Assembly: GCF_900170025.1 (NCBI RefSeq)
Contig: NZ_FWEX01000006.1
Coordinates: 1,387,089-1,451,088 of the forward strand
Origin: Nitrospira sp. ND1
GTDB taxonomy: Bacteria > Nitrospirota > Nitrospiria > Nitrospirales > Nitrospiraceae
DNA: 64,000 bases
Direction of reading: 5' to 3'
In this document: piece by piece, positions 23,570 through 33,461 of the stretch
Position numbering within the stretch: the first letter of the stretch is position 1
Layout of the letters: the number at the start of each line of letters is the position of its first letter
The notes under the pieces: generated by a model
Databases searched by the model: none
Told to the model about the DNA's origin: nothing
What the model saw: the letters and a program-made list of their open reading frames with translations, nothing else
Made by a program: the position numbers and the translations under genes

Positions 23570-24613
23570 CTATCGGGACGTTTTGGTAACCGGTGACCAG
23601 GATTCGGCCAGGCGGGCCGCCACCTTCACGGCCTCCAGCAGGCTCCCATGCTCGGCAACCCCTTTTCCGGCGATGTCATAGGCCGTTCCATGATCCACTG
23701 AGGTCCGGATAATCGGGAGCCCGACGGTCAAGTTCACGCAGGTGCCGAACGCGACCAGCTTCAGAGGAATAAGCCCCTGATCATGATACATCGCCACCAC
23801 ACCATCGTAGTCGCCGCGGGCGGCCTTCCCGAACAGGGTATCGGCTGGAAGCGGATCGCTGGCCTTGATACCCGCCGCCCTGGCCAGTTTGACGGCCGGT
23901 GCGATGCTGGTCGACTCCTCGTTGCCGAACAGACCATGCTCTCCAGCGTGGGGATTCAACGCCGCCACGCCGATTCTGGGACGCGCAATGCCGAAATACT
24001 TCGTCAACCCGAGATGTGCGAGGCGGATGGCCTTGCTGATCCGTTCCGTGGTCAGCAGCGGGGACAGGGCATTGATCGCCACATGGGTGGTGGTGAACAT
24101 GATTTTGAGCGGCCCGCCGACAATCATCATCCCGAACTCTGTGGTCTTGGTCAGATCTGCCAGCAGTTCCGTGTGTCCCGGGTAGTGAAAACCGGCCATG
24201 TTCATGGCTTCTTTATTGATGGGAGCCGTGACGATCCCACCCAGGCTCCCCGCCTGCGCCAGCTTCACCGCTTCCTTGATGAATGCGATGGAGGCTGCAC
24301 CGGTCACCGCGGTAGCGGCACCCATGCGAAATTTCGGTAACGGACTTTCCAGCGGGTCTGCCACGGCCACCTGCCCCGCCTTCAACCGCTGGCCGTTCGC
24401 CGGATTGAAGTCCACCACCTGCAGAGGGAGCTTCAGCCAGGCGATCGTCCGTTCCATGACGTGACGGGAGCCGACGACAACAGGAGTACAGAGGCGCATC
24501 AGAGCCCTATCGGCCAAGGCCTTGGCGATGACTTCCGGTCCGATCCCGGCCGGATCTCCCATTGTGAGACCCAGGACAGAACGCGCTGTCTTGGTCGTGC
24601 GTTTAGGAGCCAT
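23570..24613 (-). CDS. pdxA: 4-hydroxythreonine-4-phosphate dehydrogenase
   Basis: 347 residues from ATG 24613; the frame extends further, but this start overlaps the end of the upstream gene by 11 bases and fits the family N terminus. PdxA oxidises 4-phosphohydroxy-L-threonine in the DXP-dependent pathway to pyridoxal phosphate. Visible motifs: LGLTMGDPAGIGPEVIAKAL, metal-binding histidines in HYPGHTELLADLT, the YHDQGLIPLK segment, and HGTAYDIAGKGVA near the C terminus. No other PLP gene is nearby. Confidence 0.95.
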   Translation of the reverse strand: MAPKRTTKTARSVLGLTMGDPAGIGPEVIAKALADRALMRLCTPVVVGSRHVMERTIAWLKLPLQVVDFNPANGQRLKAGQVAVADPLESPLPKFRMGAATAVTGAASIAFIKEAVKLAQAGSLGGIVTAPINKEAMNMAGFHYPGHTELLADLTKTTEFGMMIVGGPLKIMFTTTHVAINALSPLLTTERISKAIRLAHLGLTKYFGIARPRIGVAALNPHAGEHGLFGNEESTSIAPAVKLARAAGIKASDPLPADTLFGKAARGDYDGVVAMYHDQGLIPLKLVAFGTCVNLTVGLPIIRTSVDHGTAYDIAGKGVAEHGSLLEAVKVAARLAESWSPVTKTSR

Positions 24614-25616
24614 GTGCGTACAAGAACAGTGTGTACCCAAGGTACAGCAGCGCGCTACCGCTGAGCAACCAGGGCCGCCAGTGTCCGGACCAGACTGCCT
24701 GCAGTAGACTCAAGCTCATAGCGAGCACGGCGAGCACCATGGTCGCCAGCGCCGTTGGCCCCAGCGTCCATTCGGTGCCCAGCAACCCGACAGAGACGGG
24801 AATCGAGCCCTGAAACACCATCGCACCAGTGACATTTCCAACGGCCAGCCGATCCTTCTTCCGATACAACCAGAGAAAACTGTTCGACATCTCCGGCAAC
24901 TCAGTGGCCAACGGAGCGATCAGCAACGCGAGGATGAGCGGCGAGACCTGCATTTCCGCTGAAATGGAATTCGCGGCCGTCACGAACAGATGGGCCCCAC
25001 CGACCAGGCCCAGCAGGCCCACGATTCCCTGCGCGCCGATCACCAGATACGACGGACGAGAGGACCGGCGTGCGAACAACAGTGGCTCCAGTTCACCACC
25101 TCCCTCACCCTCTTCATCTTCGGCCGAGAACTTGAGCTTCATGTAATAGACGTACATGCCCAACAGCACTGCCGCGACAGCCACGTGAAAGAGCTTGGAG
25201 GGGATGACCGCGCAGGTCAACGCCAGCGCATAACTGATCAGGAAGAAGCTGATATCGACGCGGACTTCGCCGTAATTGAGCTTGAACGTCGCCGTCCGCT
25301 TACCGAGCTTCGCGTAGAGCAGCAACAGCAGCGCTAGAATAGGCAGGACCAGCGTGCTGAGCATGAACGGCGCCCCGAGAATGGCGCCCAGACCGACCTC
25401 CATCTGCTCTCGCCCGGCCCCGAAAAAAATCGCGATGATCGGAATCGACGTCTCCGGTAGGGTCGTCCCGACCGCCGCGAAGACGCTCCCGACCGCGCCT
25501 TCAGAAATGTTGAGACGCTTGCCGAGCCATTCAATGGCGTTCGTAAAGAGATGGCACCCGGCGAGGGTGACGACGACCGAGGCCACAAACAATCCCACAT
25601 AGAGCAGGATCGTCAC
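24603..25616 (-). CDS. Sodium/calcium-exchanger (CaCA) family membrane protein
   Basis: 337 residues from GTG 25616, with about ten transmembrane helices in two inverted halves. Both alpha repeats are present: GSVFAAVGTTLPE in the first half and APLATELPEMSNS in the second, each with the acidic ion-binding Glu. A charged cytoplasmic loop (SAEDEEGEGGGELEP) separates the halves, as in YrbG/NCX-type proteins. It probably exchanges a cation such as Ca2+ for Na+ or H+ across the inner membrane. Ion specificity cannot be told. Its last codons overlap the pdxA start. Confidence 0.85.
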   Translation of the reverse strand: MTILLYVGLFVASVVVTLAGCHLFTNAIEWLGKRLNISEGAVGSVFAAVGTTLPETSIPIIAIFFGAGREQMEVGLGAILGAPFMLSTLVLPILALLLLLYAKLGKRTATFKLNYGEVRVDISFFLISYALALTCAVIPSKLFHVAVAAVLLGMYVYYMKLKFSAEDEEGEGGGELEPLLFARRSSRPSYLVIGAQGIVGLLGLVGGAHLFVTAANSISAEMQVSPLILALLIAPLATELPEMSNSFLWLYRKKDRLAVGNVTGAMVFQGSIPVSVGLLGTEWTLGPTALATMVLAVLAMSLSLLQAVWSGHWRPWLLSGSALLYLGYTLFLYAHGS

Positions 25617-25674: not shown

Positions 25675-26883
25675 TCACCTGCTCCCTTTTTCCTTTTTCG
25701 CATGTCCTGCCGTGCGCCGATAGGCCTGCATGGCCTCTTCCAAAATGTCTTTCACCGGACGGCCGCTCTGTTCGGCAATCCGCTTACAATCCTCATACTC
25801 AGGAGCGGCTTTGCTCCGACCCGGTTGGGAGTCCGCCACCTTGATAGACACCTCGTGGCCATGGACCTGTACCGGGACAAATCGTCGTGGCAGCACCCGT
25901 CGCTGCACCTCATGGGTCCTGACCCCGAGCGCCGTCGTGTCGGCGAACAACACGGCCAGCACGGCCTCCACCTTCTCCTGGGGAGCCAGCACGGAGAGTA
26001 CATTCCCGGGACGGCCCTTTTTCATCGTGACCGGTGCCAGGGTCGCATCCACGGCTCCCGCAGCAAACACCCGATCGAACACGGTCTCGTAGACCTGCGG
26101 ATTCAAGTCGTCGATGTTCGTCTGAAGTTCAACGATGGTTTCCAGCGAACCTACGGCGGCCGGTTCTTCACCGACGAACACTCGTAACACATTCGGCCAA
26201 TGCGCCGGATCGGCAGTTCCCGCCCCATACCCCACCCGGCGCACCTGCATATGAGGCAAGCGACCGAATTCTGTCGCCAGGGTTCGCACCAGCGCGACTC
26301 CCGTCGGAGTCGCCAGTTCCCGCTCAGGCCCCCCGGCATAGATAGGCAGGCCGACTGCCAGCGCAGCCACGGCCGGACCCGGCACAGGCAACGATCCGTG
26401 TGCCGACATGAGGGTGCCCGATCCCACATTGATCGCGGAGGCCGTCACGCGCTGCACCCCCAGGAGATGGATCCCCAGGACCCCGCCGACCACATCGACA
26501 AACGAATCGATCACGCCGACTTCGTGAAAATGCACATGCGAGGGTTCGACGCCATGGGCCTTCCCCTCAGCGTGAGCCAGCACATCGAACACGGCCTGGC
26601 TCTTTTCTTTCACCGCCGGGGGCAGGCCGCTCTTCAGTAGAATCCGTTTGATCTGCGCCAGGGTTAACGGGGCGCGAAAGCCCTTCTCGACCAGCACATC
26701 GACTTTAGTGGCAGTGAGGGCCCCGCGCTCGACCCGTTTCCGCGTCAGGCGAAACCCCTCGATCCGCAACAAGGCCAGCCCGCGCACGAGATCTTTAAAC
26801 GGCAATCCCGCATCGACCAGCGCACCCAAGGTCATGTCGCCGCTGATGCCGGAGAAACAGTCGAAATGAAGATGTGTGGCCAC
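25675..26883 (-). CDS. larC: Nickel-pincer cofactor biosynthesis protein LarC (nickel insertion)
   Basis: 402 residues. GTG 26883 is preferred over ATG 26904 because AGGAG sits 4 bases upstream of it. LarC inserts nickel into the dithio-pyridinium mononucleotide precursor in a CTP-dependent step, giving the cofactor used by lactate racemase LarA and relatives. The N terminus HFDCFSGISGDMTLGALVD is diagnostic. The His-rich HVHFHEVG and the C-terminal VSIKVADSQPG block are also present. In Lactobacillus plantarum the protein is made by a programmed frameshift joining LarC1 and LarC2; here both parts are one unbroken frame. larB lies 0.8 kb upstream, beyond a + strand gene; larA and larE are not in the window. 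Confidence 0.9.
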   Translation of the reverse strand: MATHLHFDCFSGISGDMTLGALVDAGLPFKDLVRGLALLRIEGFRLTRKRVERGALTATKVDVLVEKGFRAPLTLAQIKRILLKSGLPPAVKEKSQAVFDVLAHAEGKAHGVEPSHVHFHEVGVIDSFVDVVGGVLGIHLLGVQRVTASAINVGSGTLMSAHGSLPVPGPAVAALAVGLPIYAGGPERELATPTGVALVRTLATEFGRLPHMQVRRVGYGAGTADPAHWPNVLRVFVGEEPAAVGSLETIVELQTNIDDLNPQVYETVFDRVFAAGAVDATLAPVTMKKGRPGNVLSVLAPQEKVEAVLAVLFADTTALGVRTHEVQRRVLPRRFVPVQVHGHEVSIKVADSQPGRSKAAPEYEDCKRIAEQSGRPVKDILEEAMQAYRRTAGHAKKEKGSR

Positions 26884-27052
26884 GTCACTCCTACGATTCA
26901 TCATCCACTGCGAGCGAGCGGCATCTTACCGGAGCCGCATCCAGACAGCAATCATTCCGCTCGTTCATTGACAGCCCTTCGATGCTGTGTTATCCCCAAT
27001 CAAGAGACGCATTCCATCGGACCACCGGCCCACACGCTGCGACTTCAACACC

Positions 27053-27677: not shown

Positions 27678-28430
27678 TTATGCTTCCCCCACCATGTTGA
27701 TTCGATGCGCGAGGCAACCGGCTCCGAAACCGTTGTCGATGTTCATGACTCCGACTCCTGCCGCGCAGGAATTCAACATGGTCAACAATGCGGCCAACCC
27801 GCCGAAGTGTGCGCCGTAGCCCCGGCTCGTCGGCACCGCAATCACCGGTTGCCGAACCAGTCCGCCGACCACGCTTGGAAGCACGCCATCCATGCCGGCC
27901 ACCACGATGAGGGCCCGGGCATCATGCAACCGTTCCTGCTGCCCCAGCAGGCGATGCAAGCCGGCCACTCCCACATCGTACAACGTGTCGGTCTTGCTCC
28001 CCATGATATCGGCCGTCACACGCGCTTCTTCCGCCACGGGAATATCGGCGGTGCCGGCGGTGACGATCAATACGGCCCCCCGGCGCACCAACTTGGGCGG
28101 CGCAATGGCGACGACCCGCGCCGCTTCGTGGTAGACCGCCCGCTTGCTCACGCGCAGGAGCGCCCGCGCAACCGAGGGTTCCACCCGCGTCGCCAGCAAG
28201 GCGTTGTTCTTCCTCAAGAGCGTCTTCGCGATGGCAACCACCTGTGATACCGTCTTGCCTTCGCAAAAAATGACTTCCGGAAACCCCTGGCGTAGCGCGC
28301 GATGGTGATCGAGCGAGGCAAATCCCAAGTTTTCATACGGCAGGGTGCGTAACCGGTGAAGCGCATCCGGCACCGCAAGAGCGCCCTGCTGAACCTTCGT
28401 GAGCAACGCCTGGAGCTGGTCCTGATTCAT
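27678..28430 (-). CDS. larB: Nickel-pincer cofactor biosynthesis protein LarB (carboxylase/hydrolase)
   Basis: 250 residues. LarB carboxylates the pyridinium ring of nicotinic acid adenine dinucleotide and hydrolyses the phosphoanhydride, the first step of nickel-pincer cofactor synthesis. The C-terminal half is PurE-like: IVTAGTADIPVAEEA, VGVAGLHRLL, VVAGMDGVLPSVVGGLV and PTSRGYG. The N-terminal part (DHHRALRQGFPEVIFCEGK) is the typical LarB extension. The start overlaps the gpsA stop by 4 bases, so larB is translationally coupled to gpsA rather than to larC. Confidence 0.93.
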   Translation of the reverse strand: MNQDQLQALLTKVQQGALAVPDALHRLRTLPYENLGFASLDHHRALRQGFPEVIFCEGKTVSQVVAIAKTLLRKNNALLATRVEPSVARALLRVSKRAVYHEAARVVAIAPPKLVRRGAVLIVTAGTADIPVAEEARVTADIMGSKTDTLYDVGVAGLHRLLGQQERLHDARALIVVAGMDGVLPSVVGGLVRQPVIAVPTSRGYGAHFGGLAALLTMLNSCAAGVGVMNIDNGFGAGCLAHRINMVGEA

Positions 28431-29455
28431 GACGGGCTCTTCTCCCCCTTGGCTTCGCGCTCCATGAGATCACCGACCGCCTGACGACAGGACTTGTCGG
28501 CAAAGAGCACCGCGTTTACTTCCTGCACAATCGGCATATCCACCCCACAGCGCAGGGCGAGCCCCAATGCCGCCTTGGCCGTGCGCACGCCTTCCGCCAC
28601 CGCCTGCATGCTCGCGAGAATTCCCTCCAAGCGTTCGCCTTTACCCAACCGCACCCCGACTGAATGATTGCGGCTCAAGGGACCGGTGCAGGTCAGAATG
28701 AGATCACCGACCCCTGAGAGGCCATAGAAAGTCCGTGGATCAGCACCCATCGCCACACCCAGCCGGATCATTTCGGCCAGGCCGCGGGTAATGAGCGCGG
28801 CGCGGGCGTTATGCCCGAGTTCCAACCCATCCACGACACCGGCAGCCAGGGCCATCACGTTTTTCAAGGCGCCGCCGAGTTGCACGCCGATCAAGTCATC
28901 GTCCGCATAGACGCGAAAGTTCGGCGTCATGAACAGCGACTGGATCGCCTTGACGACACCGGCATCCTGCCCGGCGAGACACAGCGCCGTCGGTTTCCCA
29001 CGGCTGACCTCACTGGCAAAACTCGGTCCCGACAAGACCAACAAGGAACCCTGCATGTGCGAGGGCAACACGCTCTGCATGACCTGCGTCACGAGCGCAA
29101 GCGTCTCTTCTTCGATCCCCTTGGTCGCACTGACCAGCGGAATGGGCTGCGGCAATAAGACTGCAACCCGGCTCAGCACCGTTCTCGCTACATGCGAGGG
29201 CACCGCAAAAATCAGGCAATCAGCGCCTGCGATGGCGTCGGATAAGACATTCGTTGCCGAGAGGGTCGGCGGAAGCAACACGCCCGGAAGGTACACCGTA
29301 TTTTCACGCCTGAGCTGGATCGCCTGAACGACTTCCGGCTCATGGGCCCACAAACAGACGGGCACCTGTTTCTCGGCCAGATGCCGGGCCAACGCCGTCC
29401 CCCAGGCCCCGGCGCCGATGACTGCCACATGCTTGATGGCCGGTTGCTCCATCAC
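28427..29455 (-). CDS. gpsA: NAD(P)-dependent glycerol-3-phosphate dehydrogenase
   Basis: 342 residues. GpsA reduces dihydroxyacetone phosphate to sn-glycerol-3-phosphate for membrane lipid synthesis. The nucleotide-binding loop is VIGAGAWGTALARHL. KGIEEETLALVTQV and the conserved block GGALKNVMALAAGV...GLELGHNARAAL, which carries the catalytic lysine and substrate-binding residues, are intact, as is SGVGDLILTCTGPLSRN. Length is normal. A consensus promoter lies about 70 bases upstream on the same strand. The stop overlaps larB. Confidence 0.95.
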   Translation of the reverse strand: MMEQPAIKHVAVIGAGAWGTALARHLAEKQVPVCLWAHEPEVVQAIQLRRENTVYLPGVLLPPTLSATNVLSDAIAGADCLIFAVPSHVARTVLSRVAVLLPQPIPLVSATKGIEEETLALVTQVMQSVLPSHMQGSLLVLSGPSFASEVSRGKPTALCLAGQDAGVVKAIQSLFMTPNFRVYADDDLIGVQLGGALKNVMALAAGVVDGLELGHNARAALITRGLAEMIRLGVAMGADPRTFYGLSGVGDLILTCTGPLSRNHSVGVRLGKGERLEGILASMQAVAEGVRTAKAALGLALRCGVDMPIVQEVNAVLFADKSCRQAVGDLMEREAKGEKSPS

Positions 29456-30084: not shown

Positions 30085-30263
30085 TTAACCCGGACTATTC
30101 ATGACTACCTACTCCGGCGTCCGACCCTCTCGCCCGGCGAGGCTTTTCTCGTTCGCTCATCGACGGACTGCGAGTACGCCTGCGTCGGCCTCACGTGCGA
30201 GTGACCTCGGCTGGCTTCCGTCTCGAACGCCTCGCGACGGCATTCATGAATGCTCCGGGTTAA
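30085..30263. repeat. Inverted-repeat element, family 2
   Basis: The 20-base ends TTAACCCGGACTATTCATGA (30085-30104) and the matching right end (30244-30263) are inverted repeats with three mismatches. The 139-base interior is GC-rich and has no gene. The terminal sequence is clearly related to the element at 44638-44779 (shared core CCCG...ATTCATGA). The right end includes the TAA stop of the amidinotransferase gene (30260-30262). It resembles a MITE or a long bidirectional terminator. Confidence 0.75.
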
Positions 30264-31060
30264 TCCAGGGCGAGAGTCAGGCATTTGGCTGCGCCGCCCG
30301 ACTTCATGAATTCGTCCAACTGAACGGGATGGGCGCGATAGCCTCGATCTTCCAGGAGCTTCGTCGTGAGCGGACAACCGGCGGGGATCACGACCTGTTT
30401 GCCGATACAGACCGCATTGCAGGCAAATCTAAGCGCTTCTTCTTGAGGCACCGCGAGCCGACGATCCTCCGGGACCCGTTCCGCGATGGCCGCCTGGCCG
30501 TAGGAATCGAAGGCCAAGGGGAGATAGAGCAGGTCCCCGCCGCTGAGCGGACAAAAACAGGTGTCGAGGTGATAGAAGCGGCTGTCGATCAATTCGAGAG
30601 GAATGATTTCCCGCTGGAAGATTTCGCTTAACTTCGGAAACGCCCGTATATCCGACCGCTGGCGGTATCCGCCGAACCAGGTGTCCGGAAATCCCAGCAG
30701 ATCGCCGGCGCCTTCGAAATACAGGGACGGGTCGAGCGTCAATACTTCATATCCGCGTTCACCGAACCATCGCGCAAAATGCGCTTCCTCCCGCTGTCGC
30801 TCCGGATAGCGAAAGCGGCTCACCAGCGCGCGACGACCGACGACGACTCCCGCATTGGCCGTAAAGACCAGGTCGGGCAGCCCCTGAACAGGCTGCATCC
30901 GCTCAACCCCGACACCGACATCCTGCTCCAGCACGGTCATCAGCGCCTGCCATTGCCGGACGGCACGCGCTGGATCCACACCGTTTTCCCGCCGCATCCA
31001 GGGATTGATCTCGTAATCGATCTGAAAATAATCGGGGGGGCACACGAGCAGGCGGCTCAT
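30260..31060 (-). CDS. Amidinotransferase-fold enzyme, probable arginine dihydrolase
   Basis: 266 residues from ATG 31060, which overlaps the upstream stop as ATGA; a GTG at 31069 is the alternative. The guanidine-modifying fold residues are visible: Asn in YEINPW, DLVFTANAG near residue 69, Glu/Asp in YFEGAGD, His in FYHLDTCF and the nucleophilic Cys in AAKCLTLALD near the C terminus. An Asn in the FTANAG position, rather than the Asp of typical deiminases, is what I recall as characteristic of cyanobacterial ArgZ/AgrE arginine dihydrolase, which turns arginine into ornithine, CO2 and two ammonia. The upstream partner is the ornithine cyclodeaminase domain found fused to this enzyme in AgrE. 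A dimethylarginine hydrolase or deiminase role is the main alternative. Confidence 0.75.
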   Translation of the reverse strand: MSRLLVCPPDYFQIDYEINPWMRRENGVDPARAVRQWQALMTVLEQDVGVGVERMQPVQGLPDLVFTANAGVVVGRRALVSRFRYPERQREEAHFARWFGERGYEVLTLDPSLYFEGAGDLLGFPDTWFGGYRQRSDIRAFPKLSEIFQREIIPLELIDSRFYHLDTCFCPLSGGDLLYLPLAFDSYGQAAIAERVPEDRRLAVPQEEALRFACNAVCIGKQVVIPAGCPLTTKLLEDRGYRAHPVQLDEFMKSGGAAKCLTLALD

Positions 31061-32301
31061 GGACGCCACCCGAGTTCACGCGCGAGTTCCGTGAGAAAGG
31101 AGGCGGCATCCATGACAAGGCCGACGGCTTGGAAACTGCCACGGTCAGCCAATTTCGTCGGCACCGCCGGATTCACATCGACGCACACCGTGGGCACGGT
31201 GGCCGGCAACAAATTGCCGGTCGCGATCGCATGCAGCGTGGATGCAACCAGTAAGGCAAGTCCGACCCCTGGAATTTCCGCGCGCATGGCCTGCTGCGCC
31301 GCCATGGAGTCCGTCAGCACCCCGGGCAAGGGACCGTCGTCGCGAATGGTGCCCGCCATCACCAGCTTCACATCGCACCGCACAGAGGCCGCCATGATTC
31401 CGCCGGTGATGACGCCCGACCGCACAGCCTGCTCGATGCTGCCGATGGTACGAATGCGATTGATGGTGCGCAGATGATGCTCATGCCCGTGCGGCACCGA
31501 ACGGCCGGCCGTCAGCCCATACCCGAGCGACGTGCCGTAGAGTGCGGCTTCCATATCGTGCGCAGCCAAGGCATTGCCGCAGAACAAGACCTGTATGTAC
31601 CCGGACTCGATCAACCACGCCAGGGCCTCTCGCCCCCCGGCGTGCACGATCGCCGGGCCGCCGGCAAAGAGCACCTTGGCCCCGGCGCGCCCCTGTCGAT
31701 GCCATTCGCGCAACTTCTGCATGCGCTGAGCGATGTCGGCAATGACAGGGTGATGCGGCCGCTCCGACGACACCACAGATTCCATAAATCCGAACACGTC
31801 ACGCTCGACAGGACGAGCGAGGGGTGTAACCCTGATTCCCTCCCGCCCGGTCACGATGAGGTCGCCGGCTGTCACCGCCCCCATGGGAACGGTCCTGGCG
31901 CGGGCCTTGGCCGGATCGACACAGATGCCAAGGTCCATTTCCATGCCCTCCACCTCCACCCACTCGCCATCCAGACGAATCTGGGTCGGCAAATGTGTCG
32001 TCGCATAGAACTGTTCGGGAAACACTCCCGGAGCCGGTGCCGGCTCGAAGCGACAGTCCGCTTCACGCTCAATGGCGGCACCGTGAGGTTGGATGGCCCG
32101 CAGAATTTCGGCCAACAGGCGGCCGGACGGGGCTCGCACCACAATCCGCGCCTGGGAAGAGGCATCCCTGGTCGCGCCGATCTTGACGTCCTGCAGATCG
32201 AAAGTACCGCCCATCATCAGAATCGTATCCAGGACTTTGGCCAGGATCAACGAATCGATAATGTGCCCCTGCAGGAACACGGTTTCTTGCGATGCGGTCA
32301 T
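31057..32301 (-). CDS. LOR/SDH-type ornithine cyclodeaminase (TIGR00300 family)
   Basis: 414 residues from ATG 32301, preceded by AGAGGT; the open frame up to 32562 is not used because its extra N terminus has no domain character. The N-terminal part (VFLQGHIIDSLILAKVLD, then FDLQDVKIGATRDASSQARI) is the LOR/SDH conserved domain. The C-terminal part has the NAD-binding region (VLFAGGPAIVHAGG, VLFCGNALAAHD) and the AAHDMEAALYGTSLG and GHEHHLRTINRIRTIGSIEQ blocks. In methanogens this single-domain form makes proline from ornithine; in Nostoc it is the C-terminal half of AgrE. The overlap with the downstream amidinotransferase suggests a two-gene version of the same pathway, arginine to proline with ammonia release. 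Confidence 0.85.
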   Translation of the reverse strand: MTASQETVFLQGHIIDSLILAKVLDTILMMGGTFDLQDVKIGATRDASSQARIVVRAPSGRLLAEILRAIQPHGAAIEREADCRFEPAPAPGVFPEQFYATTHLPTQIRLDGEWVEVEGMEMDLGICVDPAKARARTVPMGAVTAGDLIVTGREGIRVTPLARPVERDVFGFMESVVSSERPHHPVIADIAQRMQKLREWHRQGRAGAKVLFAGGPAIVHAGGREALAWLIESGYIQVLFCGNALAAHDMEAALYGTSLGYGLTAGRSVPHGHEHHLRTINRIRTIGSIEQAVRSGVITGGIMAASVRCDVKLVMAGTIRDDGPLPGVLTDSMAAQQAMRAEIPGVGLALLVASTLHAIATGNLLPATVPTVCVDVNPAVPTKLADRGSFQAVGLVMDAASFLTELARELGWRP

Positions 32302-32408
32302 GACGGACCTCTCACGACTCGTGCCGGCGCCGGAGCGGAAGGCGTCCGGGAGGAACATGCCTGACTCTGTAAATTCTACCATCTGCCGGAAGGAATGAGG
32401 CGCGAGGG

Positions 32409-33461
32409 TCAGTCGCTTTTCTTCACCACTTCCCGCAGGACGCTCGTGGCGTAGGAACCGGGAGGGAGCCAGAAGCCAAGGGTCAGCACAGTGCCCTCCA
32501 GCGACCAGGACAACTCGTTGAGACGGACGCGCAGGGCTCGCCGTTCGCCACGGAATCCACATTCGGCGCCGGCTTTCGACAGAAGCTCCGGCGTGGTGCC
32601 CAGCTCAGCCACCACGGCCTGTTCAATGTCACCCGGGACCCCCGTCGCCCAGGGTGCGCGGGAGCCAAAGAGTGGTCCGGTCGGACTGATCTCAAACCGG
32701 TCGGCACGCGGCTGCTCGACCTCCGGCTGCTCTACAGGAAAACAGGCACCGTTGTCCGATTTCATCGCCCAGTCGCCCAGAAACACCCGGTCGATGCTCT
32801 CGATCCGTTTGGCGACGATGCGATTGAACACATGGGACTGGTAGGCATTCATGAACCAGATGCGTTTGTTGCGAGGCATCTTGTTCCGACGGGCCGCGTC
32901 CTGGAGCAACTCGGCACCCAATTGAAAGTTCGTCCCCGATCGCCCTTGCCGTTGCGGACCAAAATAGTTGGGGACGCCCCGCCGCACGAGTTCATCGAAC
33001 AACTCTTGCAGGTCGTCTTCGCTGCGCTCCCGAACATCCCGGATCACCAGACGAAACTGGTTGCCCGCATGATGCCCCTTACGAAGCCGGTTGCGATGGC
33101 GCCCCAGGACTTCCAGCGCCAGCAACCGCTCGTCGGTGGGTAATGCCGAGATGGTCTCTGCCTTCACTCCCTGCAACGACAACATCTGCGTCGTCACGGC
33201 CTGCGCATCTTTCAGCCCGGCCACCCCGATGGTCTGGGCTTTCACGTGGAGCTGGGAGGCAAGTCGCAAGACGAGATCCGGCGTGGACAGCCCCCGTTTC
33301 TTTACCCGGATATACAGATGCTCACCTTCGCCGCAAGGCAAATACAGTGGCCGTTCCTCCACACAAAAATCATCCGGAGTACTGCGAATCCGGCCGCCGA
33401 GGGCAGGAACCGAGGCGGTCAAATAGGGCACCGTGTCATCGAGCCAGGACGGAGGCGGCAT
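32409..33461 (-). CDS. truD: tRNA pseudouridine(13) synthase TruD
   Basis: 350 residues. TruD makes pseudouridine at position 13 of certain tRNAs. The catalytic Asp lies in VAGLKDAQAVTTQ. Other family blocks are VEERPLYLPCGEGEHLYIRV, GNQFRLVIRDV, VPNYFGPQRQGR and FMNAYQSHVFN. The TRUD insertion domain and the C-terminal RALRVRLNELSW block are present, so the gene is full length. AGGAAACC precedes the ATG. It shares its upstream region with a divergent secreted-protein gene. Confidence 0.95.
   Translation of the reverse strand: MPPPSWLDDTVPYLTASVPALGGRIRSTPDDFCVEERPLYLPCGEGEHLYIRVKKRGLSTPDLVLRLASQLHVKAQTIGVAGLKDAQAVTTQMLSLQGVKAETISALPTDERLLALEVLGRHRNRLRKGHHAGNQFRLVIRDVRERSEDDLQELFDELVRRGVPNYFGPQRQGRSGTNFQLGAELLQDAARRNKMPRNKRIWFMNAYQSHVFNRIVAKRIESIDRVFLGDWAMKSDNGACFPVEQPEVEQPRADRFEISPTGPLFGSRAPWATGVPGDIEQAVVAELGTTPELLSKAGAECGFRGERRALRVRLNELSWSLEGTVLTLGFWLPPGSYATSVLREVVKKSD

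Follow-up and report, generated by a model that had tools for sequence, protein, structure and literature searches.

Overlapping ornithine cyclodeaminase and arginine dihydrolase-like genes of Nitrospira as a predicted arginine catabolic pair, probably linked to the nickel-pincer nucleotide

The closest described counterparts of the gene pair analyzed here are two bifunctional cyanobacterial enzymes, AgrE of Anabaena (Alr4995) and ArgZ of Synechocystis (Sll1336), each encoded by one gene in which an arginine dihydrolase (AD) domain precedes an ornithine cyclodeaminase (OCD) domain. In Anabaena, AgrE and PutA have been described as a route from arginine through proline to glutamate (PMC8262935). 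Archaeal OCDs of the LOR/SDH type (M. maripaludis, 3c2q; the N-domain of M. jannaschii MJ1480, 3mgj) share the OCD fold, although the 3c2q chain lacks the N-domain present in the Nitrospira protein. Deoxyhypusine synthase, which oxidizes an amine with NAD+, shares its fold with OCD residues 165-413 but acts on a different substrate and catalyzes a different reaction. A last point of comparison is the lactate racemase LarA, a nickel-pincer nucleotide (NPN) enzyme that requires LarB, LarE and LarC and follows the same hidden hydride transfer logic as OCD; no sequence match between LarA and OCD was seen, and the two are linked by co-occurrence and NCBIfam naming only. To our knowledge, LarA is the only proven NPN enzyme.

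We analyzed a 64,000-nucleotide stretch of the Nitrospira sp. ND1 genome (contig NZ_FWEX01000006.1), hereafter the window, in which both domains and catalytic residues of AgrE and ArgZ are found as two genes. We consider it quite likely that these overlapping genes form a co-translated arginine catabolic pair and that its OCD is one that probably requires NPN. The features discussed below are as follows.

24603-25616: sodium/calcium-exchanger-type membrane protein adjoining larC, kept in Nitrospiraceae
25675..26904, minus strand: larC, nickel insertase of NPN biosynthesis (TIGR00299, 192.6 bits against a cut-off of 90)
27678..28430, minus strand: larB, NPN biosynthesis (NF033503, 286 bits against a cut-off of 175)
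28427..29455, minus strand: gpsA, glycerol-3-phosphate dehydrogenase, part of the conserved neighborhood
30260..31060, minus strand: AD, 266 aa, arginine dihydrolase-like protein with an alpha/beta-propeller fold of the ArgZ/AgrE N-terminal domain type
31057..31060, minus strand: ATGA, the 4 bases in which the OCD stop codon and AD start codon overlap, read in the sequence
31057..32301, minus strand: OCD, 414 aa, ornithine cyclodeaminase of the TIGR00300 family, with a LOR/SDH N-domain (residues 6-103), a beta region (105-187) and a DHS-like Rossmann domain (189-406)
32302..32315, minus strand: Shine-Dalgarno-like GAGAGG 5' of the OCD ATG, read in the sequence
32409..33461, minus strand: truD, tRNA pseudouridine synthase, upstream neighbor in Nitrospiraceae

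An earlier note on this DNA had described two genes overlapping by 4 bases, in an order opposite to that of the cyanobacterial fusion; its coordinates and overlap are correct, and the OCD-AD order was confirmed. The OCD gene runs from an ATG at 32301 to a TGA at 31059-31057, and AD from an ATG at 31060 to its end at 30260. A longer OCD frame beginning at 32562 extends into truD, but 32301 is the start we favor, given that it agrees with the start seen across the family and that the GAGAGG lies a few bases 5' of it. Of the 60 public loci with OCD directly upstream of AD, 34 show the same -4 spacing, so the overlap is not due to chance, and the ATGA would couple translation of the two genes. No Rfam element was found around the pair, nor were promoter or terminator signals above chance.

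The enzyme assignments of the earlier note are also supported. OCD matches TIGR00300 above the cut-off (451.5 against 410.8 bits, residues 7-410), and its Pfam matches (PF04455, PF21571 and PF21570) are the three parts of the AgrE C-terminal half; its identity to the OCD domains of the cyanobacterial fusions is approximately 40%. A structure model with a pLDDT of 86 matched 3c2q (Z of 41 over 333 residues) and ArgZ/AgrE (Z of 34-36), and its residues 165-413 matched deoxyhypusine synthase with Z of 17-18.5 at approximately 10% identity. Counting backward from where the aligned range ends would place K383, the only Lys invariant among 108 OCDs, close to K329, the catalytic Lys of human deoxyhypusine synthase, which suggests a catalytic or tethering role for K383.

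For AD, the best PDB matches were ArgZ (E of 1e-72) and AgrE (3e-69), and identity to ArgZ was 45% over 263 aa in an alignment with ArgZ and nine relatives. Residues N19, N69, E116, D120, R135, H164, D166 and C260 are invariant in 124 of 124 homologs. N69, in the motif FTANAG, aligns with ArgZ N71, where the ArgZ mutant structure 6juz has Ser (FTASAG) and dimethylarginine hydrolase (DDAH) structures have Asp (F-V/I-E-D); AD therefore carries an ArgZ-type active site with Asn at ArgZ position 71, and the suggestion that this Asn distinguishes dihydrolases was borne out. Relative to AgrE/ArgZ, the Nitrospira pair falls below the cut-offs of both the fused-enzyme and the dihydrolase models. NF052231 describes the bifunctional enzyme with both domains on one chain and AD first, while here there are two open reading frames with OCD first; on the arginine dihydrolase domain model NF052232, AD scored 287.3 bits against a cut-off of 450. 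Three scanned split AD proteins from other lineages also failed this model (308-353 bits), and a cyanobacterial domain (L134) passed it (531 bits). Because the ArgZ-type residues are kept while the cut-off is failed by AD and other split forms, AD appears dihydrolase-like by mechanism and lies outside NF052232 as that model is drawn.

We scanned public data for further loci and recovered 80 AD loci, of which 77 were testable and three lay on contigs too short to tell. In 60 of the 77, OCD immediately preceded AD on the same strand, and in none did it lie downstream; the remaining 17 had AD without an adjoining OCD. The pair occurs in Nitrospirota, Nitrospinota, Planctomycetota, Verrucomicrobiota and Chloroflexota, as well as in single bins labeled Armatimonadota, Gemmatimonadota and Deltaproteobacteria (taxonomy here being that of the bin labels), and in close relatives that have it AD likewise follows OCD. 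Only cyanobacteria yielded the fused AD-OCD form: each of the 56 OCDs that exceed the cut-off in that phylum lies in an open frame of approximately 700 aa, and in the six such frames checked AD and OCD share one frame (6/6). Five fused sequences formed one clade in both trees (supports of 100/99 and 100/100), so the simplest reading would be a single fusion event in the cyanobacterial line; in the AD tree an unfused Gastranaerophilales group was sister to the fused clade (96/86). Both trees were midpoint-rooted, and the direction of change is what we infer from them. The earlier view of this locus as a peculiar "split AgrE" reverses the history, as two separate genes are the rule in Nitrospirota and turn up sporadically in other phyla.

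Several variant loci were seen. In four Gastranaerophilales-type genomes (L103:5763-6789, and L109, L118 and L121), a LOR/SDH-N domain standing alone, of 75 aa in L103, lies directly upstream of AD, and both the OCD catalytic domain and larC are missing from these genomes. By our own reading of the sequence, the frame after AD in L103 resembles a glutamine synthetase, fitting a possible release and capture of ammonia. A Nitrospira bin (L051:5822-6001) keeps the usual order of truD, AD, gpsA, larB and larC but lacks OCD, and OCD is shortened in L066 and L064; these may be assembly gaps or real losses.

The predicted pathway begins with AD, which would hydrolyze the guanidino group of arginine twice (arginine + 2 H2O -> ornithine + CO2 + 2 NH3), with Cys260 as nucleophile, His164 as acid/base and Asn69 at the position occupied by Asp in DDAHs; these roles we assume to carry over from ArgZ, on the basis of aligned sequences. 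OCD would then oxidize the alpha-amine of ornithine to an imine, close the ring and return the hydride, giving proline and a third NH3, and PutA would oxidize proline to glutamate. Since the ArgZ-type active-site residues are kept in every homolog, this arginine-ornithine-proline route is well supported as a prediction; for Nitrospira itself we infer the reactions, their direction of use and the cofactor. PutA (proline dehydrogenase plus aldehyde dehydrogenase) is encoded elsewhere in the genome and stands downstream in the pathway, as in the AgrE/ArgZ system, so that on paper the catabolic route to glutamate is complete. Two copies of ProC are also present, and proline supply is thus independent of the OCD-AD route.

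One may postulate that AD is instead a DDAH, or an arginine deiminase making citrulline. Its sole Pfam match is DDAH_eukar, it falls short of the NCBIfam dihydrolase cut-off, and it scores 236 bits on the Mtb-type dimethylargininase model; however, this score is itself below that model's cut-off of 300, as are those on the two other dimethylargininase models (75 against 340 and 39 against 450), and it is not discriminating, because the ArgZ-type domain L134 reaches 239 bits on the same model. We rejected the Pfam-based reading on the ground that the cyanobacterial ArgZ-type domain yields similar Pfam and NCBIfam scores. Active-site alignment, which the earlier note had named as a way to detect a DDAH, does not group AD with the dimethylarginine hydrolases: PDB DDAHs match at approximately 1e-10 (best 5e-10), some 60 orders of magnitude weaker than ArgZ, position 69 is Asn rather than Asp, and the DDAH-like paralogs of sister genomes are a separate family with Asp. 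We therefore regard a DDAH or deiminase as very unlikely. A less remote but still unlikely alternative is that the locus serves an ornithine-ammonia cycle, in which AD returns ornithine to arginine synthesis and OCD has a minor or regulatory role. AD does occur without OCD in one Nitrospirota genome (G037), some Planctomycetota loci have AD with no OCD beside it, and in Gastranaerophilales (L103) AD lies upstream of glnA, but the OCD residues are fully conserved, both genes are co-translated across the family, and PutA is present, all of which argue against this alternative. As a separate observation, some sister-order genomes encode a second, DDAH-like protein (L144 in G041, L145 in G044, and others); L144, the one we read, carries the discriminating Asp and is distinct from AD.

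Throughout Nitrospiraceae the genes follow the order truD-OCD-AD-gpsA-larB-larC-exchanger, as they do in the cultured N. moscoviensis (L054), and larC also matches NF052512 (136.8 bits, cut-off 50). A single operon joining the pair with larB and larC was considered and not accepted: AD and gpsA are approximately 0.8 kb apart, with an opposite-strand open reading frame between them, and it is gpsA to which larB is coupled. Because that coupling is to gpsA and not to the OCD-AD pair, the linkage is best described as a neighborhood, not clearly one operon, and it may be a neighborhood only. The larB start lies within the end of gpsA in a 4-base overlap, which oddly couples a nickel cofactor gene to one for glycerol-3-phosphate dehydrogenase.

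The earlier note missed that OCD is linked to, and co-occurs with, the nickel-pincer cofactor genes. Of 48 Nitrospirota genomes with a completeness of at least 90%, all 38 that carry OCD also have larC (raw counts, with shared ancestry ignored). LarA (PF09861) was missing from 19 of these 38, and six lacked both LarA and GSU2086, so that OCD is their one candidate NPN enzyme; in the two near-complete genomes without larC, OCD, LarA and GSU2086 were all missing, and one of them (G037) keeps AD. In the cyanobacterial phylum, larC was found in 56 of 56 OCD genomes versus 36 of 90 without OCD (Fisher 5e-16, shared ancestry ignored), and among 32 diverse AD-bearing genomes it was found in 20 of 25 with OCD versus one of seven without (p 0.003, kinship ignored); completeness is not given for the five OCD-positive genomes that lack it. 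larE was above the cut-off in 56 of 61 relatives. The genome studied here does encode a LarA elsewhere (G000:C6:1182993). According to a study of December 2024, approximately 15% of genomes encode larB/C/E but lack larA, and the NPN protein of cyanobacteria had yet to be identified (PMC11796402). NCBIfam release 20 names TIGR00300 as NPN-dependent; in the literature searched we found neither the basis of this label nor a paper joining the nickel-pincer nucleotide and ornithine cyclodeaminase.

Either NAD+ or NPN could carry out ornithine cyclodeamination, which is a hidden hydride transfer. It is conceivable, if somewhat improbable, that OCD is a plain NAD+ enzyme whose association with larC reflects shared ancestry or neighborhood with no cofactor link. 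This would accord with the PDB entry 6lrg, by its title AgrE with ornithine and NAD+, with the fold shared with an NAD+ amine oxidizer, with the coupling of larB to gpsA, and with the five of 25 diverse OCD genomes in which larC is missing. The absence of the LarA-family Lar_N domain (PF09861) from the Pfam matches of OCD and AD can be noted here, as can that of LarA from the listed structural matches of the OCD model, which proves nothing. It is harder to reconcile with a plain NAD+ enzyme that the OCD-larC co-occurrence is without exception in both Nitrospirota and the cyanobacterial phylum and persists where LarA is absent, that both near-complete Nitrospirota genomes without larC also lack OCD though G037 keeps AD, and that the four Gastranaerophilales-type genomes, which have AD and only the small LOR/SDH-N domain, have no larC. 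On balance we lean toward an OCD that needs NPN made by LarB, LarC and LarE, in place of or alongside NAD+. The broader proposal, about which we are evenly divided, is that TIGR00300 OCDs are a missing non-LarA NPN client, which would make arginine-to-proline catabolism nickel-dependent in Nitrospira and cyanobacteria, with GSU2086 as a third client.

The placement of GSU2086 in this proposal follows from the finding that all near-complete larC-bearing Nitrospirota genomes but one carry LarA, OCD or GSU2086. This family (NF052581; G000:C6:1961767-1962681 in this genome, and P0003 from L039) is present in 48 of 61 relatives and co-occurs with larC; it is distantly related to the OCD Rossmann domain, weakly matches a model for homospermidine biosynthesis, and is possibly a further nickel-pincer client.

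These results extend the cyanobacterial pathway, in unfused form, to a nitrifier genus and several other phyla, in which annotation is likely to label the unfused AD as a DDAH. They also bring an independent co-occurrence argument to the question, raised in late 2024, of which protein uses NPN where LarA is missing, and a split OCD lends itself to testing more readily than a fused enzyme. Within the cyanobacterial phylum, genomes of approximately 2 Mb (e.g., G104, G107 and G109) have no OCD and carry larC frames of approximately 250 aa, not approximately 400, perhaps representing LarC1 alone or frameshifted LarC1/LarC2. Another genome of this phylum retains an OCD remnant broken by stops (G230:C1:13479-13961) together with an intact larC.
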